Source: Noviherbaspirillum suwonense
GTDB taxonomy: Bacteria; Pseudomonadota; Gammaproteobacteria; Burkholderiales; Burkholderiaceae_D
Direction: 5' to 3'
NCBI RefSeq assembly: GCF_900182955.1
Contig: NZ_FXUL01000013.1
Coordinates: 1 to 64,000, forward strand
Length of the DNA: 64,000 nucleotides
Made by a program: the position numbers and the translations under genes. Shown here piece after piece: positions 8,081 to 53,008 of this stretch. The number at the start of each line of letters is the position of its first letter. The stretch's first letter is position 1. The notes under the pieces were generated by a model. That model searched no databases. It saw only the letters and a list, made by a program, of their open reading frames with translations, and had not been told where the DNA came from.

Positions 8081-9418
<1,338 letters not shown>

Positions 9419-35136: not shown

Positions 35137-35835
35137 CTAAGGAACTTTACATAGATCTCCGTGAGAAATCATAAAAGGAAAACCGTCCTCAGCGACTGGA
35201 GGCACTGGCTTGCAAAGCTTTTCTTTCAAAAATCTCACAATTATTAGGCGAACAGATTCGTCTACGTATCTTAATTTATCGAACTGGTCATCCCACTGAA
35301 AGACTTTGATGCTTTCTTGGTCTGGCCATGGTGCGGGTCCATCGGGACGAAAAACAGTTGCAATATAAGGTTTAGACTGGTTTTTTTCGTAAATGACAAT
35401 CGGCTGAAAAAATACTGTAGCGCTTGCACTTCCACCAAGGTATCCCCAGTCAACTCTTTCAACGTATCTTTTGAGTGATTTATTGTAAATCTTAGGCAAG
35501 CCAAAATGTCGCCAACTATGTTTAGTACCAAGATATATAAATTCATGCATTGGCGCGTCTTCTTGGTCTGTTCTGTATCCTTCATAACCACCGCGCACCC
35601 AGTCACACCAACCGTCCCCATTGATGTCCAATACTTTCCATCCGCCAATCGTGTAATAGGTTTGATACGTTTTATTCCGAATTGAATCAGGTATGGAATA
35701 AGTTGGTTTTTTGCATATATTGTTTGCCTCAAAAGAAATCTCAGACAATCTTCTGTCCTGCGCTTGCACAAATTTTGTTAAAAAAAATAGTGTTAAAATT
35801 AAAACTGCATTTCTATTTAAGGCGAAATTTTTCAT
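35137..35835 (-). CDS. Small exported protein, candidate immunity protein for the RHS toxin
   Basis: 232 aa. Residues 1 to about 25 form a typical signal peptide (NAVLILTLFFLTKFVQAQ). The mature part has VLDINGDGWCDWVRGGYEG, resembling a Ca-binding repeat loop, and five cysteines. No known family recognised. It begins 8 nt after the RHS stop on the same strand, the usual place for a cognate immunity gene, and shares the AT-rich composition of the RHS tip. A periplasmic location would fit protection from a cell-wall- or periplasm-acting toxin. The immunity role is inferred from position only. Confidence 0.6.
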   Translation of the reverse strand: MKNFALNRNAVLILTLFFLTKFVQAQDRRLSEISFEANNICKKPTYSIPDSIRNKTYQTYYTIGGWKVLDINGDGWCDWVRGGYEGYRTDQEDAPMHEFIYLGTKHSWRHFGLPKIYNKSLKRYVERVDWGYLGGSASATVFFQPIVIYEKNQSKPYIATVFRPDGPAPWPDQESIKVFQWDDQFDKLRYVDESVRLIIVRFLKEKLCKPVPPVAEDGFPFMISHGDLCKVP

Positions 35836-35843
35836 TTTCCAGT

Positions 35844-38800
35844 TTATAAAGAAAGCGGAACAATCTGCAAACCACGCAGTGGCTTAATTTCCGCACAACG
35901 AAGACTGCGCCAGTCCCCTCTACCCGCACGTGTGCCAACAAACGTGCGGACATAGTCGCCCTCATCACATGGTTTTCCATAACTACAACTTCGTGTGACA
36001 AGATCAATGTTTTGTGCAAATGGTTGGCCACCGCCATTATGCTTCCGCGCTGTTCGCATCGCTAACTCAGTTTCAATTTCGCGTTGACGTTTTTCGAACG
36101 CCGGATTGGCTTTATTAGGATTTTCTAAAGGCTTGACATCATTTAGAAAATTACCAGTTAAATCAACTCGCGCAATAATTTCACGGAGATTAACCTTGAT
36201 AAACGTTCTCGATATAAAATTGAATTTATCAAAACTTTTGTACAGGCTCATTAGCCATAACCCAAGTACAGAGTCAGAAAAAATTGATTCAGTCATAAAT
36301 GCGTTCTTTGCCTCGCCTAAAGTTTTTCCATTTCCCTGCGGAACGAAACAAGCAATGTCAATAAATGATTGGCGATCAAGCATAGTTTGACTCAAAAAAC
36401 TTTTTTTCAAACTTTCACTCAAAAACTCGTTGCTGTTAGTGGGCCCCCAAGATAAAACTGCGTCGGAGCAAGATAGCCGGCGAGCCAACAAAAAAATCCC
36501 AGTTTCTGGTATGTTTATTTTTACAGCGCGTTGTCTCGCTTTAGTGATTCTTTCTTGAATATCATCTGATATACCTATTGCTTGCTTATCTGTTCTTGAA
36601 AGTTTGTCCAGCGTCTCAATAAACGTCGACGCCACGAATTGCGAGCGTCCGTACGAAGCATGGTATTGCCGTGCTGGTTCGCCGTTTGCTCCCGGCTGAC
36701 CGAAAATCGTTACGCCAGGGCAGCCGTCCTTGCTGCAATCTGCGTTCAATGCAGAGTACTCATTCATCTCCGCCGCAGCCTCGATTCGTTCCACCCGTTC
36801 ACGTTCGGTGTCGTCGGCATAGGCGACTGGCAGAGATGTTTCCTTGTTGATGTTGCAATTCAGTAGTCGCTGCAGATTGGCTGGACTATTTGCGTCGACA
36901 CCGGTTGACCGAGTTACGACTAGTCTGTCCTCGCCTGCCCCAAAACGTATTTGCGGCAGAAGGGCCGGGACATCCTTGCACAGGTTTTCGCCATCCTTGT
37001 CCTTGATCAGGTTCGCGATGAGCAGCGCTGCATCCCGGTTGCTGTAGTCGGCGATGACGAACTGGCGCAAGGAGATCAGGTTTTTCCCATAATGCGCAGT
37101 AAAGTTGCCGACGGTTTCGTCAGTCGTGCCTGTCCATGAAGTCGAGGACTTCTTTCCCACGATGAAATTACCGTCCTTGTCGAACAGCAAACCGGTCTGA
37201 TTCTTCGCATATTTTTCCATCAGCTGGTTTATGGCGTCGCTGCCGCCATCTCCGCTGGCTTCGATGCCGTCCACGCTGAAGGCCCATCGCGCTTTGGTAA
37301 AGCCCTGCTTCGTTCCCAATTGCTTCCCATCCGCGCCGGTCGTGATCGCGTAATAAACCAGCCTGGCCGCGCCGTCCGGGTCGAAGTATCGGTTGGGCTG
37401 CCCTGCCGCATAAGCGGTCAGATCGAGCCGCAACGCTTCTGGCACATCGCCATCCAGCGTGTCGGCGATGCCGTCTGGGTCGGGACTGATGAAGCGGCCG
37501 GTAGCCGGATCGTAGTAGCGGGCGATGTGGTAGGACAGGCCGGTTTCCTCGTCGGCGTACTGGCTGACCAGGCGCAGCCTTGGGTCCTGCCGTGATGCGG
37601 CGGCACTGGCGGCGGGGCTGCTGCCCCAGGGGTCGGGGGCGGCGCGCCACAGGGTTTTCCGTGCGGATGCATCCGGCTCGCCGCTGGTCACTGCGTTGAC
37701 TGCGCCGCGATGGTCGGTCTGCAGCAGAAAGGCAATGCCGTCGCGTAGCCAGGCGACCGGACGATATCCCTGGTACAGGTACTGCTCCATGCGCGACGGA
37801 CCGCGTAGCGGATGGGCTTCGACGGCCACCAGCTGCGTGCCTTCATACAGGTAATACTCCGTGCCGGCCGCGCTGCGCTTGCTCGCGCGGCGTCCATGCG
37901 CGTCGTAGCTATAAGCGGCGACATCGGCAATGCCAGGGCTAGCGTCGGCGGTTGCGGTTGCGGTTGCGGTTGCGGTGCGCACGGACACAAGCTGCGATGC
38001 CGCATTCCATCGCAGGATGAAGCTGCCCCTGGCGGTCGTGATGTGTCGCGGCAGGCCGGCTGCGTCATGCTGCTCGCCGGGCGCTTCGCGACTAATGCCG
38101 GGTTCTGCCTGCGGCGCATGCTGCTGCCCGGTCGCCGAACCGGACAGCGCGCCCGCATCCGTTCCGGCTCCGGGCAAGTCTTCCTGTGGTGCGAATGCCA
38201 CGAGCCTGGTCTTGAGTCCGCTCCGGTCCAGCCACGCGTCGGGCGCCCTGCTTATCAGCGGGTCGAGCCAACGCGGCCAGTGGATTTGTTCGATCGCCGC
38301 ATGCTGCCCATGGTGAGGGTGCGTCGCGTAATAGCGGTAAGCCAGTCGTTCGCCGCCGGGCAGTGTCCTTGCGCTGAGGCGGCCAGCGGCGTCATACCAT
38401 GCCTTTACCGTCATGCTGACCGGCGTGCCGCGCGCAGTGGCCGCCGCGATCTCGACGCGCTTCTGGCTGACCTGGCCCCACGGCGTATGCATGTAGCGGC
38501 TGGTGTGCATGCGCCTGTGGTCGGTATCCACGGTTTCGACCGTCTTGTATGGCCCGTCCCAGCCGAATTCCAGGCGTTCCGGGGAGGCATCGCCAGGCAG
38601 TTCGCGGTTGATGTCCAGCAGCCGTCCCGCCGCATCGTGGCGGGCCCTGGTCACCATGCCGCGTGCGTCGCGCATTTCAGTGATGCGCCCGGCAGCGTCG
38701 TAGCGCGCGTACTGCCAGCCCTGCCCCGGATTGCGGATGCCGACGACTTGCCCGAAATCGTCGATCAGCCGCTCGGCGGACTTGCCATCAATGGTGTAGC

Positions 38801-41000
38801 GCAGTACGTCGGGCTGGTCGACGTCGGCAGGGCTGGCGTCGCCGGGCGGCACGGCCTCTGCCGGGCCGCGTGCCCACCGGCGCACCACCTCTTCCACCTG
38901 TCCGTCGGGCCAGGTGATGCTGCTGATCTCGTTACGGGCATTGCTCGCCAGCCCGGTGTCCCGTTCGGCCAGCACGGTCGTTTCATCGTCGGCATAGGCG
39001 GTCTCGCCATGATGCGTGATCTGCCCGTTGCTGCCATAGGTATAGCGGCTCATGCGGACGATATGGCCCCAGCGATAGCGGACGGTCTGGGTCCGGCCGG
39101 TATGCGGGTCGTGGGCAAGGTCCAGCGTGGCGCCCATGGGCAGCAAGACCCTGGTGACGTAGTTGCCGCGTTCGTCCCACTGGTAGCGGGTGATGTCGGA
39201 GTCAGCGGGCGTGCCGGCGGGGCCGTTGGGCAGCGGGCCGTCGACTTCCACCAGCAGGCTGCGGCCGCCGGTCTCCTGGTAGCGGTAAAGGGTGATGCGG
39301 GTGCTGGCGCTCAGGCTGACCGGGTCGTAGCCGGTCTCGGCGACCTTCAGCACCTGCCCTCGTTCGTTGTAGGCGATCCGGACTTCGTGCGTGCTGCCGG
39401 GAACGACGCTGTCTCTGGCAATGCGCATCGGGCCGAAATGCCAGGGCGCGCCGCCTGCGCCGGACTCGCTTCGAGGCAGGGCGGGATAGGGAAATTGCTG
39501 CCTCAGCACCAGCGCCACGGCTGGCGCCTGCTGGCCATGGCGGTAACTGAGCTGCTTCAGCGCATAGGGCCGGCCAAGGGCGTCGAGCTGCTGGCGGCGG
39601 CCGGCCAGCGGCAAGCCGTCCTTGTCCAGCGTGACGACCTCCTCCACGCGCCCGTGCCGGTCGTAGCGGTAGCGCAGGTTGACGGGGCCGCAGCTGGCGC
39701 AGCCGGCGCCGCGCGCCTCCAGCACGCGAAAAGCGCCCGCGACGATGGCGTGGCGATAGGTGGTGGTCCGGCCCTGCTCGTCGGTGACGCGGGTCCGCCC
39801 GGGCTCGCCGCGCTTGAAAGTCAGCTTCTCGCGGACACTGCCTGTTTCCGGCTTGCCGCCCTCGCCGGTATGTCCGGTGTCGTGCCGAATCGACAGTACC
39901 GCCAAGCCGTTGCCGTCATATGCCCAGGTGGCGATGCGTTCGCGCAGGGGCTTGCCGTCGCTGCCGGCGCCGTCCACGGTGATGCCGGTCAGCAGGGTCG
40001 GAAAGCGGCTGTCTTCATGATGGTAGATGCGCCTGACCGTACTGACGCTGCTGGTGGCGGGCGTGTCGCCAAGGCGAAAGGCAGGTCGCGGCTGGGCGGG
40101 GTCGTACCAGGTCGGCAGATGCACGGCGCTTAGCGTGGCATGGCCTTGCGGGCTGGGGCTGGGGCTGGGGCCATTGCCGGCGTTGCCATAGTCGTAGAGG
40201 AAACGGCCGACCGGCGTGTCGACGCTTTGCACGCCCCGGTACCTGCCGGGACGGTCATCCTTCCGGTGAAGGTAATGGAACGTCATGCTGCGGCCCTGCG
40301 GGTCGGTCACCCTGGAAATGCGGCCGTCTTCCATGCGCTCGATGACGACCTCCATGCCGTTGCCGTCGCTGATGCGGCCAAGGCGGCCCTTGTGGTCGAA
40401 AGTGAGCTCGCGGCCGTTCGGCCAGCGCCAGCGATATTCCGGCTGGCCGCCGCTGCGCACGATGCGCACCCGGCCCTGGGCCGGGTCGGACGTGGTGCAT
40501 ATGGTCCTGCTCCAGGCGCTGCGCGCAAACACGATGCGGGCGCCATCGGCCTGGAGGATCTGCAGCGTGTTGCCGAATGCATGCAGGCGGGTGTCATAGG
40601 AGAATCGCCAGCCGTGTCCGATGCCCTGGACGGGCATGCCGGGTGCGGCAAGGTGGCTGTTGTAGTGGCGCACGAGTTCCAGGCCCAGCAGGCCGGGCAA
40701 TGCCGGCATGTCGGCTTCCCGCTGGTACTTGTTGCCGGTGATGATGTTGATCGGGTTGCCGGCGGCCTGGCCGACGCCGCCGGTGCTGTCCAGGCCAGCG
40801 GTTTGCCCGGTCGCGCAGGGAGAGCCGGCAATGCCGGGGCCGCAGGACTGTGCATGGGCGAAGACCGGAATGGCAGCGATGGCGACGGCCAGCAGCAGCG
40901 CGATGCTTGCGACGATATCGATGGAGACCGCACGCAGCCTGGCGGCCGCCGTTGCGGGCCTGTGCGGACATCCGCGGCGACGCCGGTTTCGGTTCGTCAT
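35844..41000 (-). CDS. RHS/YD-repeat polymorphic toxin-like secreted protein
   Basis: 1718 aa. A long N-terminal signal sequence (basic residues 1-22, hydrophobic core about 27-50, AHAQ) is followed by a DUF6531-type entry (GNPINIITGNKYQREADMP, about residues 80-98). Then come YD repeats such as YRYDRHGRVEEV, YARYDAAGRITEM and YSYDAHGRRASK. The core closes with YHIARYYDPATGRFISPDPDG and YAAGQPNRYFDPDGA near residue 1205. The remaining about 510 residues are the variable tip, encoded by AT-richer DNA. Inside it E1411/E1414 and YHASYGRSQFVASTF (from residue 1446) vaguely resemble the Glu and GRYQF motifs of phage-type lysozymes. The start overlaps the TadE-OmpA stop (ATGA). Transport route unknown. 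Confidence 0.88.
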   Translation of the reverse strand: MTNRNRRRRGCPHRPATAAARLRAVSIDIVASIALLLAVAIAAIPVFAHAQSCGPGIAGSPCATGQTAGLDSTGGVGQAAGNPINIITGNKYQREADMPALPGLLGLELVRHYNSHLAAPGMPVQGIGHGWRFSYDTRLHAFGNTLQILQADGARIVFARSAWSRTICTTSDPAQGRVRIVRSGGQPEYRWRWPNGRELTFDHKGRLGRISDGNGMEVVIERMEDGRISRVTDPQGRSMTFHYLHRKDDRPGRYRGVQSVDTPVGRFLYDYGNAGNGPSPSPSPQGHATLSAVHLPTWYDPAQPRPAFRLGDTPATSSVSTVRRIYHHEDSRFPTLLTGITVDGAGSDGKPLRERIATWAYDGNGLAVLSIRHDTGHTGEGGKPETGSVREKLTFKRGEPGRTRVTDEQGRTTTYRHAIVAGAFRVLEARGAGCASCGPVNLRYRYDRHGRVEEVVTLDKDGLPLAGRRQQLDALGRPYALKQLSYRHGQQAPAVALVLRQQFPYPALPRSESGAGGAPWHFGPMRIARDSVVPGSTHEVRIAYNERGQVLKVAETGYDPVSLSASTRITLYRYQETGGRSLLVEVDGPLPNGPAGTPADSDITRYQWDERGNYVTRVLLPMGATLDLAHDPHTGRTQTVRYRWGHIVRMSRYTYGSNGQITHHGETAYADDETTVLAERDTGLASNARNEISSITWPDGQVEEVVRRWARGPAEAVPPGDASPADVDQPDVLRYTIDGKSAERLIDDFGQVVGIRNPGQGWQYARYDAAGRITEMRDARGMVTRARHDAAGRLLDINRELPGDASPERLEFGWDGPYKTVETVDTDHRRMHTSRYMHTPWGQVSQKRVEIAAATARGTPVSMTVKAWYDAAGRLSARTLPGGERLAYRYYATHPHHGQHAAIEQIHWPRWLDPLISRAPDAWLDRSGLKTRLVAFAPQEDLPGAGTDAGALSGSATGQQHAPQAEPGISREAPGEQHDAAGLPRHITTARGSFILRWNAASQLVSVRTATATATATADASPGIADVAAYSYDAHGRRASKRSAAGTEYYLYEGTQLVAVEAHPLRGPSRMEQYLYQGYRPVAWLRDGIAFLLQTDHRGAVNAVTSGEPDASARKTLWRAAPDPWGSSPAASAAASRQDPRLRLVSQYADEETGLSYHIARYYDPATGRFISPDPDGIADTLDGDVPEALRLDLTAYAAGQPNRYFDPDGAARLVYYAITTGADGKQLGTKQGFTKARWAFSVDGIEASGDGGSDAINQLMEKYAKNQTGLLFDKDGNFIVGKKSSTSWTGTTDETVGNFTAHYGKNLISLRQFVIADYSNRDAALLIANLIKDKDGENLCKDVPALLPQIRFGAGEDRLVVTRSTGVDANSPANLQRLLNCNINKETSLPVAYADDTERERVERIEAAAEMNEYSALNADCSKDGCPGVTIFGQPGANGEPARQYHASYGRSQFVASTFIETLDKLSRTDKQAIGISDDIQERITKARQRAVKINIPETGIFLLARRLSCSDAVLSWGPTNSNEFLSESLKKSFLSQTMLDRQSFIDIACFVPQGNGKTLGEAKNAFMTESIFSDSVLGLWLMSLYKSFDKFNFISRTFIKVNLREIIARVDLTGNFLNDVKPLENPNKANPAFEKRQREIETELAMRTARKHNGGGQPFAQNIDLVTRSCSYGKPCDEGDYVRTFVGTRAGRGDWRSLRCAEIKPLRGLQIVPLSL
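37948..37977. repeat. In-frame hexanucleotide repeat (GCGGTT)n in the RHS gene
   Basis: Five near-perfect GCGGTT units inside the RHS core. They translate on the minus strand as Thr-Ala pairs (ATATATAT) between two YD repeats. A second hexamer run (GGGGCT)n, encoding Ser-Pro pairs, lies in the same gene at about 40151-40171. Confidence 0.8.
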
Positions 41001-42325
41001 GGCTTGCCTCCGGCGCGCCTGATGTCGATGACGACACGCCGGTTCGGCGCGAGGCAGTCAACCTGTTCCTCGCGGCTGCCCGGACAATCGGCTTGCGCGA
41101 TGACCGGGTCGGCAGAACCCATGCCGCGCACCGCGATCGGCACATCCGGGAAGCCCTTGCTCTTCAGGTAATCGCGCACGGCGGCGGCCCGCGCCTCGGA
41201 CAGCCGCTGGTTGATCGCGACGCTGCCCAACTGGTCGGTATGACCGGATATGGTGACCGAGGCGATTGCCTGGCCGTTCTGCTGCGCTGCGCCGGCCTCC
41301 GCGATCAGGTCGTCGAGCGCTTCCAGCCCACCGGGCTTCAGGCTGGCTTCGTCGAAGCCGAACAGCACATCGGCGGACAGCGGAAACGATTCGGACGCCA
41401 GCAGTTCAACCGTGCAGACCGGGCAGGCGGCAGGGCCGCAACCCTTGTCATCGCCGCCGTCGGGGTAGTTGTCCTGATTACCCTGTCCGTCAGGGGCGGC
41501 GGGCGGCGTGGTCTTGCCGTCGCCTGTGCCATGGTTGCCGCCGCTGCCGCCCGTTTCGCCGCCCGTTCCATCCCCGTCCGTTCCTGGCGGCGGCCCGGAC
41601 TGGCTGGTCCCGGTCTGCGGCCCGCCGGGAATGCTTACCGGGTCGGCCCATTCGATTGCGTCGCTGTTCATGTGCAGCGCGATGTCGTTGACGACCGGCA
41701 CCCGGCCTTCGGCCAGCAGCGCGCTCCTGAAACGGTCCGTGCCGTCATCTGTGGCCGCCAGCGTAGCGACGAACACCCTGGCGGCCGCCAGCACCCTGGG
41801 CTGATAGCCATGGGTGATGCGCAGCTTGAGCAGGTTGGCGTCGAAGATATTCTGCTGCGATGCTGCCTTGACGACTGCCGGGTCTTTCATCGCCAGGCCG
41901 CTGTTCGGAATCACGCGGGCGTCGGTCCTGAGCAGGCGCTGCAGGGCCGGGTCGTTGAAATCGCTGAAGCTGGCCCGGTTCGGATTGATCAGTTCGATCC
42001 GGTAGCGGCCATTCATGTCGGCGGTCGCGCGCGCCACGGCTGCGGCGATCTCGGCCGGGTTGCTGCCCCCGCCATATAGCGGCGCCAGGCTGCGCAAGTA
42101 GGCGGCGCTGATCGATTCCACCGTCGCGTTGTGCATGCTGCCGGCGCGCGCAGCCATGAAGCTCGCATGGTTGACCTGGTTTTTGGCGACGTACAGCAGG
42201 CTGTACTGCAAGACCGCCAGGCCCATCAGCGCCAGCACCGGGCAGACCACGGCGAATTCCACCATGGCCGCGCCGCGACTGGCGCCAGCAGCATGCCGAC
42301 GGACGGGAGCCATGCCCCGCTTCAT
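40997..42325 (-). CDS. TadE-like pseudopilin fused to OmpA C-terminal domain
   Basis: 442 aa. The N-terminal segment SRGAAMVEFAVVCPVLALMG has the prepilin-type G/xxxxEF cleavage pattern and hydrophobic stretch of TadE. Residues about 60-230 are a TadE/TadG-like periplasmic region, followed by a Gly/Thr/Pro-rich linker (about 232-290). The C-terminal about 140 residues are an OmpA-like peptidoglycan-binding domain with FGFDEASLKPGGLEAL, TISGHTDQLGSVAINQRLSEARA and the final NRRVVIDI. A minor pilin that grips the wall is an attractive reading. Both ends overlap neighbours by ATGA (tadC before, RHS after). Confidence 0.88.
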   Translation of the reverse strand: MKRGMAPVRRHAAGASRGAAMVEFAVVCPVLALMGLAVLQYSLLYVAKNQVNHASFMAARAGSMHNATVESISAAYLRSLAPLYGGGSNPAEIAAAVARATADMNGRYRIELINPNRASFSDFNDPALQRLLRTDARVIPNSGLAMKDPAVVKAASQQNIFDANLLKLRITHGYQPRVLAAARVFVATLAATDDGTDRFRSALLAEGRVPVVNDIALHMNSDAIEWADPVSIPGGPQTGTSQSGPPPGTDGDGTGGETGGSGGNHGTGDGKTTPPAAPDGQGNQDNYPDGGDDKGCGPAACPVCTVELLASESFPLSADVLFGFDEASLKPGGLEALDDLIAEAGAAQQNGQAIASVTISGHTDQLGSVAINQRLSEARAAAVRDYLKSKGFPDVPIAVRGMGSADPVIAQADCPGSREEQVDCLAPNRRVVIDIRRAGGKP

Positions 42326-43275
42326 AGGCCGGAATGGATGAATTTCATGGCGATCGGAAAGAACAATACGACGAAGGTGCAGGGAAAGATGAATGCCAGC
42401 AGCGGGAACAGCAGCTTGACCGGCGCTTCCATCGCCAGCTTCTCGGCGCGCAGAAAGCGCTCGGTACGGCGCTGGTCGGCCTGGGCGCGCAGGATGGGGC
42501 CAAGGTTCATGCCCATGCTTTCGGCCTGGATGACCGCGGTGGTGAACGCGGTGACGCTCGACTCGTTTAACCTGGCCGCCAGGCTGCGCATGCTGGCCGC
42601 GCGCGACTTGCCGGCGCGGATGTCACGCAGCAGTCGCTGGAACTCGTCGCGCAGCACGCCTTTCGGTCCCTTGGCGACAGCCTGCGTCAGCGCACCCTGC
42701 ATGTTCAGCCCGGCTTCGACGCAGAGGGTGATGATGTCGAGGTAGAACGGCAGCGTCTTGAGCAGCTCGCGCCGCCGCGAATGGATGCGGTCGCGCAGCC
42801 AGATGGCCGGGTAGGACCAGCCGGCCAGCGCGCCGCTGGACAGCACGGCAAGGTAGCGGCTGGCGGGCATGCCGGCCGCGCCCGGCGCGGGCTGGTCGAA
42901 CGAAGCAAGCATCCACCAGCACAGCAGCGCCACGAGCGCGGCGCCGACGACACGGCTGGCGGTGAATTGCAGCGGGCTGATCGCGAAGTCGACGCCGGCC
43001 TGCCCGAGGCGCACCAGCAAGGCGGCCTGGCGCCGGGGCGAGGCTCGAACGCCGATGAAATGCGCGGTCCAGTTGATCGGCTGCCACAGGAGCCGGTAGC
43101 CCAGCGGCGGCGGGTCCTTGTAGGTCCGGTCGTCCGGCGGCACCCTGGCCAGCGCACGGCTGAGCAGCCATGCCAGCAGCGCGAACGCCAGGCCGGCCGC
43201 CATCGATATCAGCACGAGCACGAGGCCGGAATGATCTGCCTGCAGGACGTTGGGGACGGCATTGTCGCTGCTCAT
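42322..43275 (-). CDS. tadC: Tad pilus inner-membrane protein TadC
   Basis: 317 aa from the ATG at 43275, which overlaps the tadB stop (ATGA); the longer upstream frame lies inside tadB. T2SSF domain protein: four hydrophobic segments, LPFYLDIITLCVEAGLNMQGAL and the cytosolic RSLAARLNESSVTAFTTAVIQAESMGMNLGPILRAQAD are typical. With TadB it forms the inner-membrane platform on which the TadA ATPase acts. Confidence 0.92.
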   Translation of the reverse strand: MSSDNAVPNVLQADHSGLVLVLISMAAGLAFALLAWLLSRALARVPPDDRTYKDPPPLGYRLLWQPINWTAHFIGVRASPRRQAALLVRLGQAGVDFAISPLQFTASRVVGAALVALLCWWMLASFDQPAPGAAGMPASRYLAVLSSGALAGWSYPAIWLRDRIHSRRRELLKTLPFYLDIITLCVEAGLNMQGALTQAVAKGPKGVLRDEFQRLLRDIRAGKSRAASMRSLAARLNESSVTAFTTAVIQAESMGMNLGPILRAQADQRRTERFLRAEKLAMEAPVKLLFPLLAFIFPCTFVVLFFPIAMKFIHSGL

Positions 43276-44135: not shown

Positions 44136-44136
44136 G

Positions 44137-46011
<1,875 letters not shown>

Positions 46012-46126
46012 CGTGCCCTCCCCTTTTCATCTGCATCGCCGTTCTTTCATCCCACGATGGGTGCGTCCAACCGTTCTTCTATGCCACCGTGTGCGCAAGT
46101 CACCGTTTGCGCAGGTCACCGTACTG
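46012..46126 (-). other. Spacer between secretin and tadA with short direct repeats
   Basis: The only sizeable gap inside the Tad operon (115 nt). It holds three spaced copies of TCACCGT/CCACCGT linked by GTGCGCAAG/TTGCGCAGG (about 46085-46126). An internal promoter or RNA processing site is possible; none can be named. Confidence 0.3.
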
Positions 46127-48376
46127 TCATGGCTGCTCGACCGGCAGCAGCCACTGGCTGGCAACCCAGCCGCGCTCCTCGCCTGCCTGCACCGCCGTCC
46201 AGAGCCCGCGCGGCGCTTGCGGCAGGGCTTCGACCACGGCGCCCGCGCGTAGCTGGCGCAGCATCGGGGCATTGATGTCCGGCGTCACACGCAGCGCAAG
46301 CCGCTCCGCGATCACGCGCAGCCTGCGCGGCGCAAGCCGGCTCTCTGCCGCCGCGGCTTGCGGCAGCGGCGTGCTGACCGGTCCGAGCAGCGGCCCGGCA
46401 TGCTCGGCCGCCGGTTCCGGCGGCGCGCGCAGCACGCCCGCGCCGACGCGGCTGACCGGCTCCACCGCGTCGGCTGCTATCCAGCCGCGCACTTCGCCCA
46501 CCATGACCTGGCGCCAGCGGCTTCTGTCGCCGTCCGTGGCCGGCTGCGTACCCATGCGCACCGCCGCGCCGCGGCCAAGGCTCAGCAGCACCGGCGAATC
46601 CGCCACCGGGCTGGCGCGCAGCACGGCTTGCGGACTGGTCACCATCAGCAGGCTGCCGCCGGCGCTCACCGGCCCGTCCGCAGGCATGGATGCGGCTGGC
46701 GTTGCCGGTGCGGGCGCTGGCGTAAAGCTGCCGGCATCGCGTCCCGGCTGCAGCGGCTGGCTCAGGTAGGGCGGCGCGTCCATGGTCCCGGACAGCTTTT
46801 CTCCCACCCGGCGCGCCCTCTCCGCCAGTTCGGGGGTATGGCTGTCGACCACGGTCGGCGTGACGAACACCACCAGTTCGGTTTCCTTGTTCTGGAAGCG
46901 CGTGGAACGGAACAGCGCGCCCAGCACCGGCAGGTCGCCAAGCAGCGGCACCTTGTCGATGTCGGTGCTGGTTTCGCGGGACAGCAGGCCGGAGAGCACG
47001 ATGGTCTCGCCGCTGGCCACGTTGAACTCGGTGCTGACCTTGCGCGTGCGCAGGCCGGGTCCGGCCTGCGTGGAGATCGACGCATCGATGGAACTGGCCT
47101 CGCTGTCGATGTGGGCGCGCACCGTGCCGCGGCTGTCGACCCTGGGCTGTATCTCGAGCTTGACGCCGTAGGACTTGAACATCACGGTTGGGCCGTTGAT
47201 GGTCGATACGGTGTACGGATACTCGCCGCCCGCAAGAAAGCTGGCCTTGGCGCCGTTGCGCGCCGACAGCTGCGGTTCGGCCAGGATGCTGGCGCGCCCG
47301 TTCTGCGCCAGCAGGTTGAGCTGCGCATTCAGGCCGAGGCTGAGGCCGGACAGGATATTGAGCGCGGCCGGCATCGCCACGCCGCCCGACACGGCGCCGT
47401 CCACGCCCGGCTTCATCGAGATCGGCGCGCTGTTCCCCTGGCCGCTGGTCTGGATGTTGACCTGGTAAGGCCCGTCATGCCCGCGCCGCAGCGGCGACCA
47501 GATGCCGGCGATCGCACCGCCGCCGGTGGGCGTCCACTTGATGCCCTGCTCGCGCAATTCATTGACCGGAAACTCGGCGATCTTGACGTCCAGCAGGATC
47601 ATTTTTTCCCAGCCGAGGCGATTGGTGAAGTTGACGATCTGCGGATAGCGCTTGGCCAGCTCGTCGATCTTCAGCAGCTCGAAGTCGGACAGGCCGTCCC
47701 CCTCGACGATCACCTTGTCGCCGATGACCGAGGCGCGGGCGCCGGGGATGGCGGCGAGAAAGGCGGCGATCTCGCGCGCATAGCGGCTGGTGTCGCCGGG
47801 CACGATATTGATCTTGAGCCGCTGGTAGCGGCCGTCCTCGCTCCAGACAAAGAGCGACGAGGTGCCGACCGCATTGGCGAAAAGGATGGTTTCCCGGCCA
47901 TCGAGCGCGGCGGCGGTCATGACCTGGCCGTTGCCCACCGCGATGCGGGCAACGCCGGGCGTGGGAAAGACCCGCGACTCGCCGACAAACATCTCGATCT
48001 CGGGAACGTCGGCCTGGTCGTCGCTCCTGCGTATCGGCGCATAAGGCTGGTTGACCAGCATGGGCGGCGTCTTCCTGCGCGGCTGCAGCTGGTCGGCATA
48101 GCCGTTGCGCGGTTGCTGCGCGGCTGCGGGAGCCGGCGGGGCGGATGTCGATGGGGCGGAAGCAGGTGGGGAGAATGCGGATATGGCCGGCTGCGGCGGT
48201 GTGGCTGCATGCGCGGAGACGGGTTGCAGCACATGCATCAGTCCCAGCGTCAGGACAGCTACAGCGACAAGGACCAGCCTGCGCGCTGTCGACGCCATGA
48301 CGGCCATGACGGACTGGCGCACCGACGCAATGAACGGCGGCCTTGCCGGCGGCGGGAAATTCTCAGGGTGCATCAT
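46127..48376 (-). CDS. rcpA: Tad secretin (RcpA/CpaC) with two C-terminal SH3-like domains
   Basis: 749 aa. The ATG at 48376 overlaps the cpaB stop (ATGATG context). A signal-type hydrophobic segment (about residues 33-57) is followed by the CpaC N-terminal domain (EIEMFVGESRVFPTPGVARIAVGNG, then VEGDGLSDFELLKIDELAKRYPQIVN) and the secretin core (about 280-525, with VNPRVDSRG-like EIQPRVDSRGTVRAHIDSE and VLSGLLSRETSTDIDKVPLLGDLPVLGALF). Unusually, residues about 595-660 and 690-749 form two SH3b-like modules (LRASPVADSPVLLSLGRGAAV ... GWIAADAV; LRVTPDINAPMLRQLRAGAVV ... GWVASQWL). Outer-membrane channel of the pilus. Confidence 0.9.
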   Translation of the reverse strand: MMHPENFPPPARPPFIASVRQSVMAVMASTARRLVLVAVAVLTLGLMHVLQPVSAHAATPPQPAISAFSPPASAPSTSAPPAPAAAQQPRNGYADQLQPRRKTPPMLVNQPYAPIRRSDDQADVPEIEMFVGESRVFPTPGVARIAVGNGQVMTAAALDGRETILFANAVGTSSLFVWSEDGRYQRLKINIVPGDTSRYAREIAAFLAAIPGARASVIGDKVIVEGDGLSDFELLKIDELAKRYPQIVNFTNRLGWEKMILLDVKIAEFPVNELREQGIKWTPTGGGAIAGIWSPLRRGHDGPYQVNIQTSGQGNSAPISMKPGVDGAVSGGVAMPAALNILSGLSLGLNAQLNLLAQNGRASILAEPQLSARNGAKASFLAGGEYPYTVSTINGPTVMFKSYGVKLEIQPRVDSRGTVRAHIDSEASSIDASISTQAGPGLRTRKVSTEFNVASGETIVLSGLLSRETSTDIDKVPLLGDLPVLGALFRSTRFQNKETELVVFVTPTVVDSHTPELAERARRVGEKLSGTMDAPPYLSQPLQPGRDAGSFTPAPAPATPAASMPADGPVSAGGSLLMVTSPQAVLRASPVADSPVLLSLGRGAAVRMGTQPATDGDRSRWRQVMVGEVRGWIAADAVEPVSRVGAGVLRAPPEPAAEHAGPLLGPVSTPLPQAAAAESRLAPRRLRVIAERLALRVTPDINAPMLRQLRAGAVVEALPQAPRGLWTAVQAGEERGWVASQWLLPVEQP

Positions 48377-49374
48377 CTTGGATTGCCGCCGCGGACCGCG
48401 GCGCCCGTCAGCACTGGCGTCGGCGCGCTCGCCGCGTCCCGCCGAGGTACATCCGCCGCCTCGCCGCCGGCTGTACGCCGTGCGGACGCTTCATTCATCA
48501 AACGCAAGGCTTGCGCTGTCGTGGGCAGAAACGCGCGTGCGGCGGGTTCCCTGTAGGCGCCAAGCCGCATGCCGTCGGACGGCAGCTTTCCACCGCTGCC
48601 GCCATACAGCACGGGCACCTCGGCCGTCGCGCTGCCGTCTCCGAGCAGCGCGGCAAGGTCTATCGTGTCGGCGGACGCGCCCTGGCTGTCCTGCGGATTG
48701 CGCAGCAGCGCCGTGAGCTTGCCGCCTTCCCGTCCGGCGATGAGCGCGCTGGCCTGGGATGGGGTCAGGTCCAGCGTCACGGTCGCATATTGGCGGCGCT
48801 CGCCGGTCAGCGGGTCGTCCGCCAGGCGCTGTCCGGTGGCGATCACCTGCACACCCAGCAGCAGCGGCAGCGCCACCTTTTTCCCGCGTCGGTCCAGGCT
48901 GACCAGAAGGTCGATCAGGTCCCCCGGGTCGAGCAGGCCGGAGAGGGAATTGATTTCGTCGACGGCGACCGTCATCGCACGGCGGCCATTATCGACCCGC
49001 GCCGAAAACGTCGGCGGCCTGGTCGGCTGCAACAGGCTGGCCAGCAGCATTTCGCCGGGCTGCACATCGTAAGCCAGCGTGCGCCCGGCCGCCCTCGCAA
49101 AATTCTCCTGGGTCAGCGCATTGGAATGCGCAAAGTCCTTCGGCACCGTGCGCAATGCGACGCTGTCGGCGGCGAGCGCCTGGCCCTTGTTCATCTGCCG
49201 GCGCGCCACCACGACTTCGACCGTCGCGCCGCGGTGACGCGCTTCCATCGCCTCGATGCGCCCGGTGAGAAAGCGGTTTGCGGCCAGCGCGGCCACGACC
49301 CCGGCGACCAGCGCAACGCCGAGCACGATGGCGGTCTTTCCAGGGCGGACAAGGAAGGGGATCGCCAATTTCAT
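48373..49374 (-). CDS. cpaB: Flp pilus assembly protein CpaB/RcpC
   Basis: 333 aa from the ATG at 49374 (MKLAIPFLVRPG); an upstream frame to 49464 covers the 56-aa prepilin gene and is rejected. One N-terminal membrane anchor (about residues 12-32) and then a SAF domain (ARRQMNKGQALAADSVALRTVP). The central RAMTVAVDEINSLSGLLDPGDLIDLLVSLD is typical for CpaB. Periplasmic accessory of the secretin. Its gene begins 4 nt after the small prepilin gene and overlaps the secretin gene. Confidence 0.9.
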   Translation of the reverse strand: MKLAIPFLVRPGKTAIVLGVALVAGVVAALAANRFLTGRIEAMEARHRGATVEVVVARRQMNKGQALAADSVALRTVPKDFAHSNALTQENFARAAGRTLAYDVQPGEMLLASLLQPTRPPTFSARVDNGRRAMTVAVDEINSLSGLLDPGDLIDLLVSLDRRGKKVALPLLLGVQVIATGQRLADDPLTGERRQYATVTLDLTPSQASALIAGREGGKLTALLRNPQDSQGASADTIDLAALLGDGSATAEVPVLYGGSGGKLPSDGMRLGAYREPAARAFLPTTAQALRLMNEASARRTAGGEAADVPRRDAASAPTPVLTGAAVRGGNPR

Positions 49375-49378
49375 TGCT

Positions 49379-49549
49379 TTACTCGCTGACCGATACGGCA
49401 TGGGTGAAATTGCGGTAGCCGGCGCGGAACGCATCGACCAGTTGCCGCAGCGTGCTGTCGCCATCGGCCATGCCTATGCCCAGCGTCAGCGCAATCGCTG
49501 CGCAGATGACGGCGTACTCGACCGACGACTGTCCATGCTGTCGGTTCAT
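49379..49549 (-). CDS. Small second Flp-like prepilin (56 aa)
   Basis: 56-codon gene whose ATG at 49549 overlaps the stop of the upstream gene (ATGA) and whose TAA lies 4 nt before cpaB. It begins MNRQHGQSSVEYAVICAAI: Gly6 is followed by QSSVEY, the G/xxxxEY prepilin peptidase pattern of Flp/TadE pilins with Glu at +5 and Tyr at +6. The hydrophobic stretch of about 17 residues is interrupted early by Asp, giving a weak membrane segment. The size equals that of Flp pilins in other species (about 50-60 aa). It may be a minor pilin beside the 89-aa Flp. Confidence 0.75.
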   Translation of the reverse strand: MNRQHGQSSVEYAVICAAIALTLGIGMADGDSTLRQLVDAFRAGYRNFTHAVSVSE

Positions 49550-50355
49550 TGCGCACCTTCGATCACCGCACTGGTGCTGAGCACGGCGCTGCTCGTGCCG
49601 TCGGGCTGATTGGTCACCACCGCCATCGCTTCGCGGCCGGGTCCCTGGAAATGCAGCACCAGCCCCGGCGGCGCGTTGCTCGATACGCTGCCGGCCGGCA
49701 GATAGCTGTCTTCCGCCAGCAGCCTGGCCAGGGCTGCGCCGCTGTCGGCAACTGGTTCACGGGACTGCAGCACCAGGTGCTGCGACCGGCGGCGGCCATC
49801 GCGCGCATCGACCTGGCTCAGGATGCGCATCCCGGCCGGCAGCCGGGACTGCCAGCGCGCACCGGCGGCAAGGGGTGCGTTGCGCCCGCCCATCACGGCT
49901 CGCACATCGGTTTGCGCGACCAGCCCGCGTGCGCCGCTGCCCGCGGCTTCCAGCTGCACCGTGAGGTAATAGCCATTCCGCGGCTGGCCGAGTATGGTCT
50001 TGCCGTCATGGCGGCTGGCGACCAGCGGACTGCCAAGGCGCGTCTGAAACCAGCTGACGAGTTGTGGCACCGGTTCGGGCGACAGGAAGGCGCGGACCTG
50101 CACCGGCAAGCCGTTGATCCGCATGGCCTGACCGACATCGACCGCCTGGGCGCCTGGTGGCATAGGCAGTTCCGGCCAGCCGGACGCCCGGGCGGCGTGC
50201 GGCAATAGGGATGACAGCAGGAACAGGAGCGGCGATAGGGATAGGGATAGGGATAGCGGCAGGGGCAGCGAAAGCCGCGCAACCAGCAGCTGCCCCAAGC
50301 GCCGCAACAACGACGCACAAGCAGCCGAACAAGCGCGGGATCGCAGCGCCTTCAT
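49546..50355 (-). CDS. Exported Tad-locus protein of unknown function
   Basis: 269 aa. A basic N-terminus is followed by a hydrophobic signal made partly of repeated Leu-Ser pairs (LPLPLSLSLSLSPLLFLL), encoded by four tandem 6-bp units (50234-50257). The mature part has VGQAMRINGLPVQVRAFLSPEPVPQLVSWFQTRLG near residues 75-108. It resembles helper proteins of Tad loci by position only. It overlaps both neighbours by ATGA (tadE-like gene before, small prepilin after), so it belongs to the machine. No domain recognised. Confidence 0.7.
   Translation of the reverse strand: MKALRSRACSAACASLLRRLGQLLVARLSLPLPLSLSLSLSPLLFLLSSLLPHAARASGWPELPMPPGAQAVDVGQAMRINGLPVQVRAFLSPEPVPQLVSWFQTRLGSPLVASRHDGKTILGQPRNGYYLTVQLEAAGSGARGLVAQTDVRAVMGGRNAPLAAGARWQSRLPAGMRILSQVDARDGRRRSQHLVLQSREPVADSGAALARLLAEDSYLPAGSVSSNAPPGLVLHFQGPGREAMAVVTNQPDGTSSAVLSTSAVIEGAQ
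50234..50257. repeat. In-frame hexanucleotide repeat (GATAGG)4 in a signal peptide
   Basis: Three GATAGG units and one GATAGC within the 269-aa Tad-locus gene. On the coding strand they encode Leu-Ser pairs in the hydrophobic core of the signal peptide. Confidence 0.8.
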
Positions 50356-51266
50356 CGTGTTTCCCCGCTGCGCAAGCGGTCACCGGGGACGACATCGCGC
50401 CACTGGCCGAGTTTGCCAAACGAAGGCGGCCGCACCGATGCCATGTCCACGACCTCGATCGCCGCCGAGATCAACCCATTGGGCATCGGCGTATTGAGCG
50501 GGGCCAGCCCACCGGTGCGCATTTCGGTCTGCTCGGGCGAAACGGCCGTCCATGGACCGGGCAGAACGCTGGCATGGCGTTCGATGCGCAGCTTCAGCCG
50601 GTCGAAGGGCTCGATGCTGCGCAGCCCGGCGGGCAGGCTGGCCAGGCTGACGCCGACATTGGCGCGATAGAGTCCGGTGCTGGCCAGGCCGGCGCGAGAC
50701 GCGAGCATGAACAAGTCGGTGTCGCCGGAGGGCGCATGGTCATAGCCGTCTGCATGCGTCTCGCCGCGCCTGGCGCCGAATGACAGCGCAATGGCGGCTG
50801 GCGATGCGATCAGCGGATGCTGGTAGGGATCATTCCAGCTGTTCCTGATCGGCGCGGCTTCCTGGGCATCGGTGACGACAGCCGCGCCGGGGATGCCGAA
50901 GAAACGCTGCCGCAGTTCCGCGGCGAGTGTCGCCGGCGGCTTCCAGCTGTTGTCGCTGCCATTGCGCAGCAGCGCGTCGAAGGCGGCATAGCGGCTGGCA
51001 AGTTGCGCCGCATGGCCGATGTCCTGGTACTTGCCTATCATCGGAATGAGAAGAAACAGCGGGATCAATGCCAGGCTGATCAGCAGGAATTCGGTAAGCG
51101 CCTGGCCGGCTTGGCCGAAGCCTGGCTGCAGCGGCAAAGGTCGTGGGAGGGACCCTGGCTGCCTTGGCTGCATCCGGTGCATCGGCTGCAATGACTGCAA
51201 TGGCTGCAATAGCTGCAGTGTGGGATGCGCTCCCGGACCCGGACCCGTTCGCGCCGGCTGCGTCAT
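50352..51266 (-). CDS. TadE-like minor pseudopilin
   Basis: 304 aa from the ATG at 51266, overlapping the stop of the tadG-like gene (ATGA); the open frame further upstream lies inside tadG. The leader is unusually long, about 50 residues with LQxLQP repeats, before the prepilin segment GQAGQALTEFLLISLALIPLFLLIP: Gly followed by QALTEF gives the G/xxxxEF processing motif. The remainder is a periplasmic domain with no named family. Predicted minor pilin of the Tad machine. Confidence 0.8.
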   Translation of the reverse strand: MTQPARTGPGPGAHPTLQLLQPLQSLQPMHRMQPRQPGSLPRPLPLQPGFGQAGQALTEFLLISLALIPLFLLIPMIGKYQDIGHAAQLASRYAAFDALLRNGSDNSWKPPATLAAELRQRFFGIPGAAVVTDAQEAAPIRNSWNDPYQHPLIASPAAIALSFGARRGETHADGYDHAPSGDTDLFMLASRAGLASTGLYRANVGVSLASLPAGLRSIEPFDRLKLRIERHASVLPGPWTAVSPEQTEMRTGGLAPLNTPMPNGLISAAIEVVDMASVRPPSFGKLGQWRDVVPGDRLRSGETR

Positions 51267-52732
51267 TTCGCCACCGCCGGCGTCATCGCGGGGTCGACCA
51301 GGCGCACCTGCCAGTAGGGATTGAACAGGCTGGGCAGTTCCACCGGCTTGCCTTGCGCGATGCCCCAGCCGTTTTCCGTGCTGCCCGGCGGGCGCGCGAA
51401 CCAGACTTCCACTGCGGCGCTTGCCCTCATTTCGCCATCCGACAGGTCGGACAGATATGCGGCCACATTGCGCCGCGCGGCGGCAGGGTCGTCCGCCTGC
51501 CTTATGGCCGAGCGGCCTTCCGGCGTGGCGAGCTGGTCGCGCGCGCGGGTCAGCTTTACGCGCAGGCTGAGCGTGGGACCGGGCGCGCCGGCTTCCAGCT
51601 GTGCGGCGCTGAGGTCGTAGAACGATGGCAAGCCGGTGTAATTGGACCACTGGTCCGAGGACGCATAGCCATGCGCGTCCGGATTGGTGGCAGGCGAGCC
51701 GCCCAGCGCGGCGCCCGACTCGTCCTGGTCCGCGTCGTCGGGATGCGCCTGCTGCTCGCCGTACGCTATCGGCTGCTCGTCCTTGCCGCAGCGAGGAAAA
51801 AACCGGCCGACGTTATGCACTTCCCAATAGGACTCGGTGTCCTCGGCCTTCCACTCGTCGTAGTTGACCAGCTCGGTGCCGCCGCGGCGCTTGACCGAAT
51901 TCTTGCGCCTGGCGACCGCGCAGGTCCATTCCCAGAATGGCGGCAATACGGCCGTTGCAGTCCAGCTGCGCTGCCGCACGAAAGCGTCGCTGTTTGCGGC
52001 CGCCCTGCTCACCCCGGCGATGCGGCCGCGCTCGTCGCCGCGATAGTGGTCGGTGAAGCCAGGCCAGCCATCGCCTTCCAGTTGTGCGCTGGCGGTGACG
52101 ACGCCGTCGCCGGCATAGTTGGCATCCGCAATTTCCTGCATCACCTTGCCGCGGGCAGCCTGGAATCTGCCGGGCGCATGCAAATGCGCCTGCGCCGCCA
52201 TGATCGCCGCCTTGTTTATTTCCACTGCAGCGACGACAGCCTCGGCGACCGGCGGCACCTGCTCGGCAATCTGGGCGATGTACTCGCCAGCGTATTGCAC
52301 GGTGGCATAGCACAGCAGCGCGTAGAGCGGCCCATAGCGGAATGCCGCGCCGAACAGCGCACCGTAGCCCTCGGGGTCGCCACACTCGGGAAATTGCCAT
52401 GACAGGTTTTCCGCATGGGTCTGCGCATATTGCGACCAGGAGGAAAGGCTGACCATCTGCGCCACCAGTACTTCGTTGGCGACCAGTGCACGGTTGCCAT
52501 AGGCGTCGAAGTTCAGCGCCCGCGCCTGCATCACGCCCGCCCCGTGGGCGACGGCGTCGGCGGTCGTGACCAGCCGGGTTTTTTCGGCAACGACCTGGCC
52601 GGTATTGAAGAGAAAGAACAGGCCGGCCATCCCCGCGAGGAGCAGGAAGATGCCGAACATAAGCGCCTGGCCGCGTTGCCGGCGCAAGCTGGCGACGGTG
52701 TGGGGCAGCGATGGCCGGCGCCAGGCTTGCAT
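51263..52732 (-). CDS. TadG-like pilus assembly protein
   Basis: 489 aa. The N-terminal RRQRGQALMFGIFLLLAGMAGLFFLF is the TadE/TadG-type start: Gly before QALMF, but without the Glu at +5, as is usual for TadG. A large periplasmic domain follows, rich in Ala and Tyr. It starts 6 nt after the flp stop and overlaps the tadE-like gene. In studied systems TadG is needed for adherence. Confidence 0.8.
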   Translation of the reverse strand: MQAWRRPSLPHTVASLRRQRGQALMFGIFLLLAGMAGLFFLFNTGQVVAEKTRLVTTADAVAHGAGVMQARALNFDAYGNRALVANEVLVAQMVSLSSWSQYAQTHAENLSWQFPECGDPEGYGALFGAAFRYGPLYALLCYATVQYAGEYIAQIAEQVPPVAEAVVAAVEINKAAIMAAQAHLHAPGRFQAARGKVMQEIADANYAGDGVVTASAQLEGDGWPGFTDHYRGDERGRIAGVSRAAANSDAFVRQRSWTATAVLPPFWEWTCAVARRKNSVKRRGGTELVNYDEWKAEDTESYWEVHNVGRFFPRCGKDEQPIAYGEQQAHPDDADQDESGAALGGSPATNPDAHGYASSDQWSNYTGLPSFYDLSAAQLEAGAPGPTLSLRVKLTRARDQLATPEGRSAIRQADDPAAARRNVAAYLSDLSDGEMRASAAVEVWFARPPGSTENGWGIAQGKPVELPSLFNPYWQVRLVDPAMTPAVAK

Positions 52733-52738
52733 GCTGCG

Positions 52739-53008
52739 CTACTTGGACTGGTCGGCGCCGTCGGCATACTTGGCCAGGCCCTTGGCCTTCTGCTCGTTGT
52801 CGGTCTTGCCGGCTGCGGCGCCGGCAGCGGCCATCGCGGCGCTGCCGGACTGCCCGGCTACTTCATTGGCGATGGCCGACATCTGGCTGCGTATGGTCTG
52901 CCCGAAGAACTGGTAGACCGCGATGGCGGCAACGGCGATCAGCGCCACGATGATGATGTACTCGGTCATACCCTGGCCGCGGCAGCGGGCCGCATGACGA
53001 ATCGACAT
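52739..53008 (-). CDS. flp: Flp/Fap type IVb pilin
   Basis: 89 aa, first gene of the operon, with AGGAG 10 nt before the ATG. CRGQGMTEYIIIVALIAVAA carries the G/xxxxEY cleavage motif: cut after Gly11, Glu16 at +5, Tyr17 at +6, then a 20-residue hydrophobic helix. The C-terminal half is Ala/Gly/Lys-rich. Its size is a little above that of most Flp pilins (about 50-75). It should be the main subunit. The processing peptidase (TadV/CpaA) is not encoded in the window. Confidence 0.9.
   Translation of the reverse strand: MSIRHAARCRGQGMTEYIIIVALIAVAAIAVYQFFGQTIRSQMSAIANEVAGQSGSAAMAAAGAAAGKTDNEQKAKGLAKYADGADQSK

Follow-up and report, generated by a model that had tools for sequence, protein, structure and literature searches.

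A Tad/Flp pilus operon of Noviherbaspirillum suwonense runs on into a gene for an RHS protein, and across many genera RHS proteins of this type are tied genetically to a TadE-type minor pilin, to which they are fused in several lineages. The C-terminal tips of these RHS proteins are exchangeable, and in relatives they include known toxin families. On this evidence, the RHS protein is probably a polymorphic toxin that is carried on the Tad pilus via the TadE-type minor pilin and serves in contact antagonism.

The window, the stretch of 64,000 nucleotides analysed here, holds an 11-gene Tad/Flp operon on the minus strand (53008-40997) that continues into the RHS gene and, behind it, a gene for a 232-aa protein that looks exported. 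The original prediction had described an unbroken same-strand run from flp (53008) to the exported protein (35137), and its reading frames are confirmed, all of the named genes being minus-strand open reading frames at the positions that it gave. They are listed below in the order of transcription, with the tip of the RHS protein and one further gene remnant; signal peptides, here and throughout, were judged by eye.

52739..53008, minus strand: flp, major prepilin of 89 aa; Flp_Fap at 24.2 bits, under the Pfam cut-off of 32.2; prepilin-like start by eye
51263..52732, minus strand: TadG-like minor pilin; Pfam Tad (PF13400) at 27.8 bits against a cut-off of 22.3
50352..51266, minus strand: first TadE-like minor pilin; no Pfam match (a longer frame was scanned); prepilin-like start by eye; homologs in L091 (40%) and L164 (28%)
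49546..50355, minus strand: conserved gene with no function assigned; no Pfam match; homologs in L073, L091 and L164
49379..49549, minus strand: small prepilin of 56 aa, from its translation; prepilin-like start by eye
about 48373..49374 (start by eye), minus strand: CpaB/RcpC; TIGR03177 at 147 bits against 71
46127..48376, minus strand: outer-membrane secretin; secretin models, the top one at 141.6 bits, under equivalog cut-offs
44137..46011, minus strand: TadA ATPase with an N-terminal FHA domain; T2SSE and FHA over the Pfam cut-off, TIGR03819 at 330 bits, under the NCBIfam cut-off of 373
43272..44135, minus strand: TadB; T2SSF at 65.2 bits
42322..43275, minus strand: TadC, judged by position and homology; homologs 81% (L034) and 79% (L035) identical
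40997..42325, minus strand: TadE-OmpA minor pilin, neighbour of the RHS gene; TadE at 45.3 bits and OmpA at 57.5 bits, both over cut-off
35844..41000, minus strand: RHS protein of 1718 aa, with DUF6531 and a start resembling a signal peptide; the RHS core runs to about residue 1210, and the remaining 508 aa form the C-terminal tip
35847..37370, minus strand: the C-terminal tip of the RHS protein, a predicted toxin; low GC; homologs in L067, L074, L075 and L076
35137..35835, minus strand: 232-aa protein, likely immunity gene; signal-peptide-like start; in L067 (26%) and L076 (40%), a homolog directly follows a related tip
34131..34761, minus strand: broken, two-piece relative (tblastn) of another immunity-like gene of the window's tip family

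Flp prepilin, TadA, TadB/TadC, CpaB, a secretin and TadE/G minor pilins, the components that mark a Tad/Flp (type IVc) system, are thus present in one locus, with the Flp, secretin and NCBIfam TadA matches below curated cut-offs. Successive genes share 4-nt overlaps at 51263/51266, 50352/50355, 49546/49549, 48373/48376, 43272/43275, 42322/42325 and 40997/41000, the last of these joining the RHS gene to TadE-OmpA, the final pilus gene before it. The remaining intergenic gaps are of 1, 4, 6 and 8 nt, with one gap of 115 nt (46012-46126), so that the start/stop overlaps, the gaps of 1-8 nt and the single 115-nt space of the original prediction follow from the coordinates. From TadE-OmpA to the end of the 232-aa gene, one terminator-like site lies on the minus strand, inside the RHS gene (40223-40206), and the whole region has 7 such sites on both strands, versus 15.3 in shuffles.

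The RHS protein matches RHS_repeat (68.9 bits) and Rhs_assc_core (56.6 bits) over cut-off, as well as DUF6531 (Pfam, NCBIfam), and the end of its core aligns with the solved Rhs proteins 7q97, 7pq5, 8cp6 and 8uy4. The GC content is 0.483 in the tip versus 0.684 in the core, and the tip matches no Pfam family and no solved structure in the PDB. By eye, the tip had first been taken to resemble a lytic transglycosylase or lysozyme; neither Pfam nor solved structures supported this guess, which was dropped. AlphaFold2 models of the tip (3-sequence alignment, mean pLDDT 36.5) and of the 232-aa protein (2-sequence alignment, mean pLDDT 47.9) were too poor for a fold search. The tip and a homolog of the 232-aa protein were found together again in two relatives, G001 and G059; L074 and L075 have the window's tip family, but the genes behind it differ from the 232-aa gene. 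The remnant at 34131-34761 is 34-39% identical to the gene behind the RHS gene in L074 and L096 (tblastn, E 7e-34 and 1e-33). Neither this broken immunity-like gene nor the exchanged low-GC tip figured in the original prediction.

Much of this architecture is shared with type VI Rhs effectors (Tre23, Tse5, Tse15 and others that have been solved), which can be aligned with the window's RHS protein at the core end and likewise have an exchangeable C-terminal tip of other composition and a likely immunity gene downstream. Type VI systems are known to use Rhs effectors that bear TreTu tips. The same holds, by family descriptions, for effectors with Tle1-like tips, both being tip types found in the relatives discussed below. 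Nevertheless, it is hardly credible that the RHS protein is an ordinary type VI effector. Unlike those effectors, it has a signal-peptide-like start and a Tad minor pilin as partner, and Pfam and NCBIfam scans found no PAAR or other spike-binding N-terminus in it. Furthermore, the lack of vgrG originally remarked on for the window extends to the whole genome (G000), which has no match to VgrG (TIGR03361, E 0.001), and TIGR03361 is over cut-off in 8 of 23 RHS genomes.

The order tadC, TadE-OmpA, RHS, proposed as a check in the original prediction, is kept in three of the four genomes of the genus, and is also seen in other genera. A close relative with the same operon but no RHS gene beside it, which had been held to speak against a tie between the two, was found once in the genus: the Tad genes and TadE-OmpA are present in G001 with no RHS gene behind the latter, but an RHS gene lies elsewhere in this genome, and both its tip and the gene downstream of it are related to those of the window. 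In a 195-genome sample of the family, RHS proteins of the window's N-terminal type (model A1) are present in 19 of 19 genomes with a close TadA (714 bits or more, the next score being 606) and in 4 of the 176 others (Fisher 8e-23, kinship ignored). In G021 and G107, which have the RHS, the sole TadA is a distant one, and G181 has a fragment. For the five genera that vary internally, the product of the exact chances for co-occurrence is 2.5e-6.

Within the same sample, TadE lies directly upstream of RHS at 17 of 37 RHS loci and nearby at 2 more, whereas 14 have no TadE nearby among the 30 best TadE matches, on which this count is based, and 4 are at a contig edge. Twelve of the 14 solitary loci are in genomes that carry a close TadA. 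Some TadE-RHS pairs stand apart from the Tad operon, including three in the single-contig genome G035, and TadE remains beside RHS both in such pairs and in reversed order. The OmpA half is absent from many RHS-linked TadE proteins; OmpA as the RHS adaptor was therefore rejected, RHS being found also behind TadE without OmpA. A loose TadE-OmpA model (1e-25) matched 161 of 195 genomes, and most of the matches listed past the first 30 cover the OmpA part only. Where antisense frames had been called (L034, L069 and L072), loci were judged by tblastn or models, or left uncounted.

It had been suggested that the RHS gene is translationally coupled to the pilus genes. The ATGA overlap is present in the window, but a strict ATGA is not general: of 29 named-genome loci, 24 have the closest candidate RHS start at -4 to +29 nt relative to the stop codon of TadE. 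In the named-genome scan, 18 of the 40 TadE loci with room (17 others, which offer under 2.5 kb, and 2 more in which TadE is weak are not counted) have no RHS gene within 2 kb downstream, one having it at 3.1 kb and one upstream, indicating that the pilin serves without RHS too.

Stronger evidence than the start/stop overlaps for a tie between RHS and the pilus comes from TadE-RHS fusions. Window-type RHS is rare beyond the family: with an RHS-only model, a class sample of 369 genomes (the window's own included) yielded 6 matching genomes outside the family, and in a phylum sample of 398 genomes the RHS model had 3 matches, all within the family, and none elsewhere. Five of the six out-of-family genomes encode TadE and RHS in a single reading frame; the sixth has them side by side. 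All three long fusions that were scanned have TadE, DUF6531, RHS_repeat and RHS over the Pfam cut-off, and two of the three have a Tle1-like catalytic domain (Pfam). The presence of TadA in all six fusion-type genomes says little, since some TadA is found in 121 of the 195 family genomes. Taken together, the co-occurrence and the fusions indicate a linkage of RHS and pilus beyond chance, and support the original, hedged view that the RHS protein is produced together with the pilus and may be exported, displayed or delivered along with it.

Two other accounts of this linkage have to be weighed. One treats the RHS gene as a passenger: being a mobile gene for a toxin, it would have come to lie behind the Tad operon by chance and gain only transcription from it. 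The low-GC tip and the nearby broken immunity-like gene do point to exchange, and solitary RHS genes occur, but the foreign composition is confined to the tip and does not extend to the core. With the co-occurrence, the pairs that stand off the operon and the fusions in several lineages also against it, this account is improbable. The other is that the Tad machine acts as a type II-like secretion system, releasing RHS to the medium or to the cell's own surface rather than bearing it on the pilus tip. In its split form, RHS begins with a signal-peptide-like stretch of its own, which would be expected of a type II substrate, no TadE match is nearby at the 14 solitary loci, and many RHS toxins carry the label 'T2SS' in Zhang et al. 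2012 (PMC3482391). Secretion of this kind is a possibility that we regard as unlikely, because the fusions hold RHS and pilin in a single polypeptide and because TadE is the recurrent neighbour, even away from the operon or with the order reversed.

That the RHS protein is a toxin is suggested by the tips in relatives. The tip could be cut from 14 of 23 RHS genes, giving 7 groups at E 1e-3; the cutting pattern failed for the 9 other genes, which are left out of the grouping, and RHS genes cut by contig ends are outside the 23. Known families were found in 4 of 10 tips scanned, namely Tle1-like phospholipase, DUF6883, TreTu and DUF6765, and the GC content of the tip is lower than that of the core in 14 of 14 RHS genes measured. 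The genes behind most RHS tips are likely immunity genes. By script, 5 of 23 RHS genes lack a gene immediately behind them, though for 2 of these 5 a different gene call gives one. The variable tips could instead be binding domains, with RHS as a pilus-tip adhesin or scaffold; the window's tip matches no known toxin family, and the tips of Myxococcus Kil have been proposed to recognise prey (PMC12075869). However, the Tle1-like and TreTu tips make such a role very improbable, as do the genes behind several tips, whose products, by eye, seem to be exported, lipid-anchored or cytosolic in keeping with what the respective tip would require.

Carriage of a toxin on a Tad pilus has partial parallels. 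Myxococcus Kil is, by description, similar in its Tad pilus, its TadE/F/G-type minor pilins with large C-terminal parts, its several tip sets per genome and its role in contact killing, and TadEFG tips are proposed for other bacteria as well (PMC12075869). It differs in that the available text of that paper mentions neither RHS nor OmpA, that its tip genes are reported to be restricted to Myxococcota by sequence, and that it works with a needleless T3SS. In this studied case of Tad-pilus contact killing, the toxin was not identified, as far as the available texts go (PMC12075869, PMC10433427). In the toxin-coregulated pilus, the secreted protein TcpF docks on the terminal minor pilin TcpB (PMC12075869). 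Unlike TcpF, the RHS cargo forms one protein with the pilin in some lineages. To our knowledge, TcpF is not an RHS protein. The RHS toxins of Zhang et al. share RHS, variable toxin and immunity gene with the system described here, but Tad, pilus, pilin and Flp have no whole-word match in the first 300,000 characters of PMC3482391. ARC toxin domains are associated with Flp pilins in PMC12605009, a toxin domain thus being listed with a pilin as here, but this is one list item, and Tad and TadE have no match in the available text. Tad pili and RHS are both named, but apart from each other, in the available texts of PMC3735071, PMC10011098 and PMC6963963, and no paper linking Tad or pilin with RHS was among the matches listed, in a literature that excludes preprints and most subscription papers.

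Export, display on the pilus and killing by RHS would, we infer, proceed as follows. The RHS protein would be exported via Sec into the periplasm, fold as a shell around its own C-terminal tip and dock on the TadE-OmpA minor pilin, which would itself be part of the pilus tip; in the fused forms, the covalent link would stand in for docking. As TadA drives the growth of the pilus, the cargo would pass the secretin and reach the cell surface. At contact, the tip would be cleaved off where the RHS core ends, to act on the neighbouring cell. Because the protein that probably confers immunity looks exported, the site of action is probably the neighbour's periplasm. The producer and its kin would be shielded by the 232-aa protein. 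An RHS shell may be too large to pass the secretin, which would count against carriage on the pilus.

In a broader sense, and with odds only a little better than even, the Tad pili of many Betaproteobacteria and their relatives may be weapons, in which the TadE-type pilin acts as a loading adaptor for exchangeable RHS toxins, both at the operon end and in pairs elsewhere, a role comparable to that of VgrG or PAAR in type VI systems. One machine would thereby serve several toxin tips, and the fused forms would be toxins built into the pilus. A candidate toxin can now be named in soil bacteria, some of them isolates, along with its putative carrier pilin and its likely antidote. Tad pili are known for adhesion. 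If the proposed carriage is true, it would represent a second use for these pili, and a new delivery route for polymorphic toxins.

The Tad/Flp pilus operon was originally predicted to run on one strand from flp (53008) to an exported protein (35137), with start and stop codons overlapping as ATGA at many junctions, and the minus-strand genes confirm this run together with its overlaps and gaps. It closes with a TadE-OmpA minor pilin (40997-42325), an RHS protein of 1718 residues (35844-41000) and a likely immunity gene of 232 codons (35137-35835). Pfam and NCBIfam support the assignment of TadA with an FHA domain, TadB, CpaB, secretin, a TadG-like protein and the TadE-OmpA protein; Flp, the secretin and the NCBIfam match to TadA fall below curated cut-offs. 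The window's genome has one close TadA and no match to VgrG. The secretin gene (46127-48376, minus strand) encodes a long C-terminal extension, in which two SH3-type repeats are suspected by eye.

DUF6531, RHS repeats and the Rhs-associated core domain are all present in the RHS protein (Pfam, NCBIfam), which starts with a signal-peptide-like stretch, judged by eye, and in which the same scans find no PAAR domain. The core end of solved Rhs proteins aligns with residues about 1023-1181 of this protein, whose core is closed by a DPDG motif, close to the self-cutting site of known Rhs proteins. The GC content is 0.684 in the core, 0.483 in the 508-residue C-terminal tip (the predicted toxin), 0.413 in the last 200 residues of the tip and 0.391 in the next gene, and tip GC is lower than core GC in all 14 RHS genes measured. 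When tip and following gene are poorer in GC than the core, this is a recognised sign that tip and antidote have been exchanged. The window's genome also contains a second, giant RHS gene (G000:C19:39230-49303, minus strand) with an open frame of 4395 aa, which has no match to the RHS N-terminal model at 1e-30. Behind the module lie the following features:

34131-34761, minus strand: broken, two-piece relative of an immunity-like gene that trails a same-family tip at loci L074 and L096 of other species
33642-34052, minus strand: DUF192 gene; in relatives, DUF192 fronts the TadE reading frame
32329-33612, minus strand: LuxR-type HTH after a short-chain-dehydrogenase-like domain; loci L034 and L035 have a gene of 41-42% identity behind the module

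We read the remnant at 34131-34761 as a trace of an earlier cassette.

TadE-OmpA is present in all four genomes of the genus. The expected order, with RHS behind TadE-OmpA at the end of the Tad operon, holds for the window's own genome, G002 and G003, but not for G001, where no RHS follows TadE-OmpA. The G001 RHS gene is placed elsewhere; it shares 51% identity with the window's in the tip and 45% in the N-terminal part, and the gene behind it is a copy of the 232-aa gene at 40% identity. In the case of G059, RHS closes the Tad operon; its tip shares 35% identity with that of the window, and behind it comes a copy of the 232-aa gene at 26% identity. The operon RHS proteins of G002 and G003 carry a tip unlike the window's (Tle1-like in G002 and 83% identical to that of G003), with the LuxR-type gene behind the module common to all three genomes, which argues that the place has been kept and the tip swapped. 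Both genomes have a second, reversed copy consisting of RHS, two exported-looking genes and TadE-OmpA; its tips belong to the window's tip family, and the genes behind its RHS show no kinship to the 232-aa gene. Near an RHS gene at L035 lies a stand-alone end of a Tle1-like tip (8942-9340, minus strand) that by eye resembles displaced rhs-locus tips.

One sample of 195 family genomes served all four model searches. The RHS N-terminal model (1e-30) matched 37 places in 23 genomes, and the best TadA match splits the sample in two: 19 close-TadA genomes reach at least 714 bits, and none of the others exceeds 606 bits. RHS is found in 19 of 19 close-TadA genomes versus 4 of 176 others (G020, G021, G107 and G181), and in G020 it also ends a Tad operon. 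Fisher's test gives 8e-23, for genomes that are related and a 714-bit line drawn after the gap was seen; shuffling inside genus, for the five genera in which the trait varies, gives a product of 2.5e-6 for genomes among the matches listed. Relative to the 37 RHS loci, and counting the best 30 TadE-OmpA model matches, TadE lies within 400 nt upstream in 17, elsewhere near in 2 and nowhere nearby in 14, with 4 at a contig edge. Twelve of the 14 sit in close-TadA genomes, and one (G067, contig C28) is directly behind tadC. In G035, a single-contig genome, the TadE of the Tad operon is not followed by RHS, three pairs of TadE-OmpA and RHS lie elsewhere, and one RHS is solitary; in one of these pairs the TadE-OmpA gene (L064:14902-16116, minus strand), ahead of an open RHS gene, has an internal stop.

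A search with the TadE-OmpA model through 84,980 species, one genome per species, gave 59 loci, partly overlapping the family sample. RHS follows TadE in loci of Massilia, Duganella, Aquabacterium, Azoarcus, Verminephrobacter, Rubrivivax, Hydrogenophaga and Solimonas, among others. Forty loci combine a clear TadE with 2.5 kb or more of room: in 22 of them RHS lies no farther than 2 kb behind it, and in 18 it does not; of the 12 whose TadE has its OmpA half, 10 are among the 22. Of the 29 loci that contain both genes, 24 have a possible RHS start between -4 and +29 nt of the TadE stop; the candidate start closest to that stop was taken, a choice that favours small gaps.

Beyond the family, this RHS type is rare: an RHS model containing no TadE columns matched 7 of 369 class-level genomes, the window's own included, and none outside the family in a phylum sample of 398. 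TadE occurs in all six other class-level genomes, in the same open reading frame as RHS in five (two of these frames ended by a contig edge) and adjacent in one. Since G278 and G402 share a genus, the five fusions stand for four families. The three long fusions have TadE, DUF6531, RHS_repeat and RHS above the Pfam cut-off, two with a Tle1-like catalytic domain; that of G230 lies behind tadA, tadB and tadC, and a betaproteobacterial bin (L141) supplies an additional fusion. TadA is present in all six genomes, which says little alone, as it is present in 121 of 195 family genomes too. That TadE and RHS are neighbours in some genomes and fused in others is strong evidence of joint function.

Among ten tips scanned, Tle1-like, DUF6883, TreTu and DUF6765 domains scored above cut-off in one each and VanY just under it in one, and no toxin family was found in five, the window's among them. 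By eye, the genes behind four Tle1-like tips are lipoprotein-like, those behind tips of the window's family exported-looking, and the ones that follow two further tips, TreTu among them, cytosolic-looking; these apparent locations fit antidotes placed at the tip's site of action. No antidote-like gene was found behind 3 of 23 RHS genes (L082, L083 and L164).

RHS is thus genetically linked to TadE, in places fused to it, and bears exchangeable tips. For the steps from export to protection, we infer the following as the most likely working. The RHS protein would be exported by Sec, dock on TadE-OmpA and pass the secretin together with the pilus; upon contact with a neighbour the tip would be cut off and act in that cell, with the 232-aa protein giving protection.

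The Myxococcus Kil system, for which no toxin is named, shows that contact killing can involve Tad pili tipped with minor pilins, and the docking of TcpF by TcpB sets a precedent for a terminal minor pilin that bears cargo (PMC12075869). Flp pilins are listed among the partners of a toxin domain in PMC12605009, so the literature hints at a joining of toxin and pilin. Zhang et al. 2012 (PMC3482391) placed many RHS toxins under T2SS, and the searched portion of its text contains none of the terms Tad, pilus, pilin and Flp. As no paper connecting Tad pili with RHS was apparent in the partial literature covered on RHS or polymorphic toxins and Tad pili, the toxins appear to be of a known kind and the carrier new: polymorphic RHS toxins with the Tad pilus as their putative carrier.
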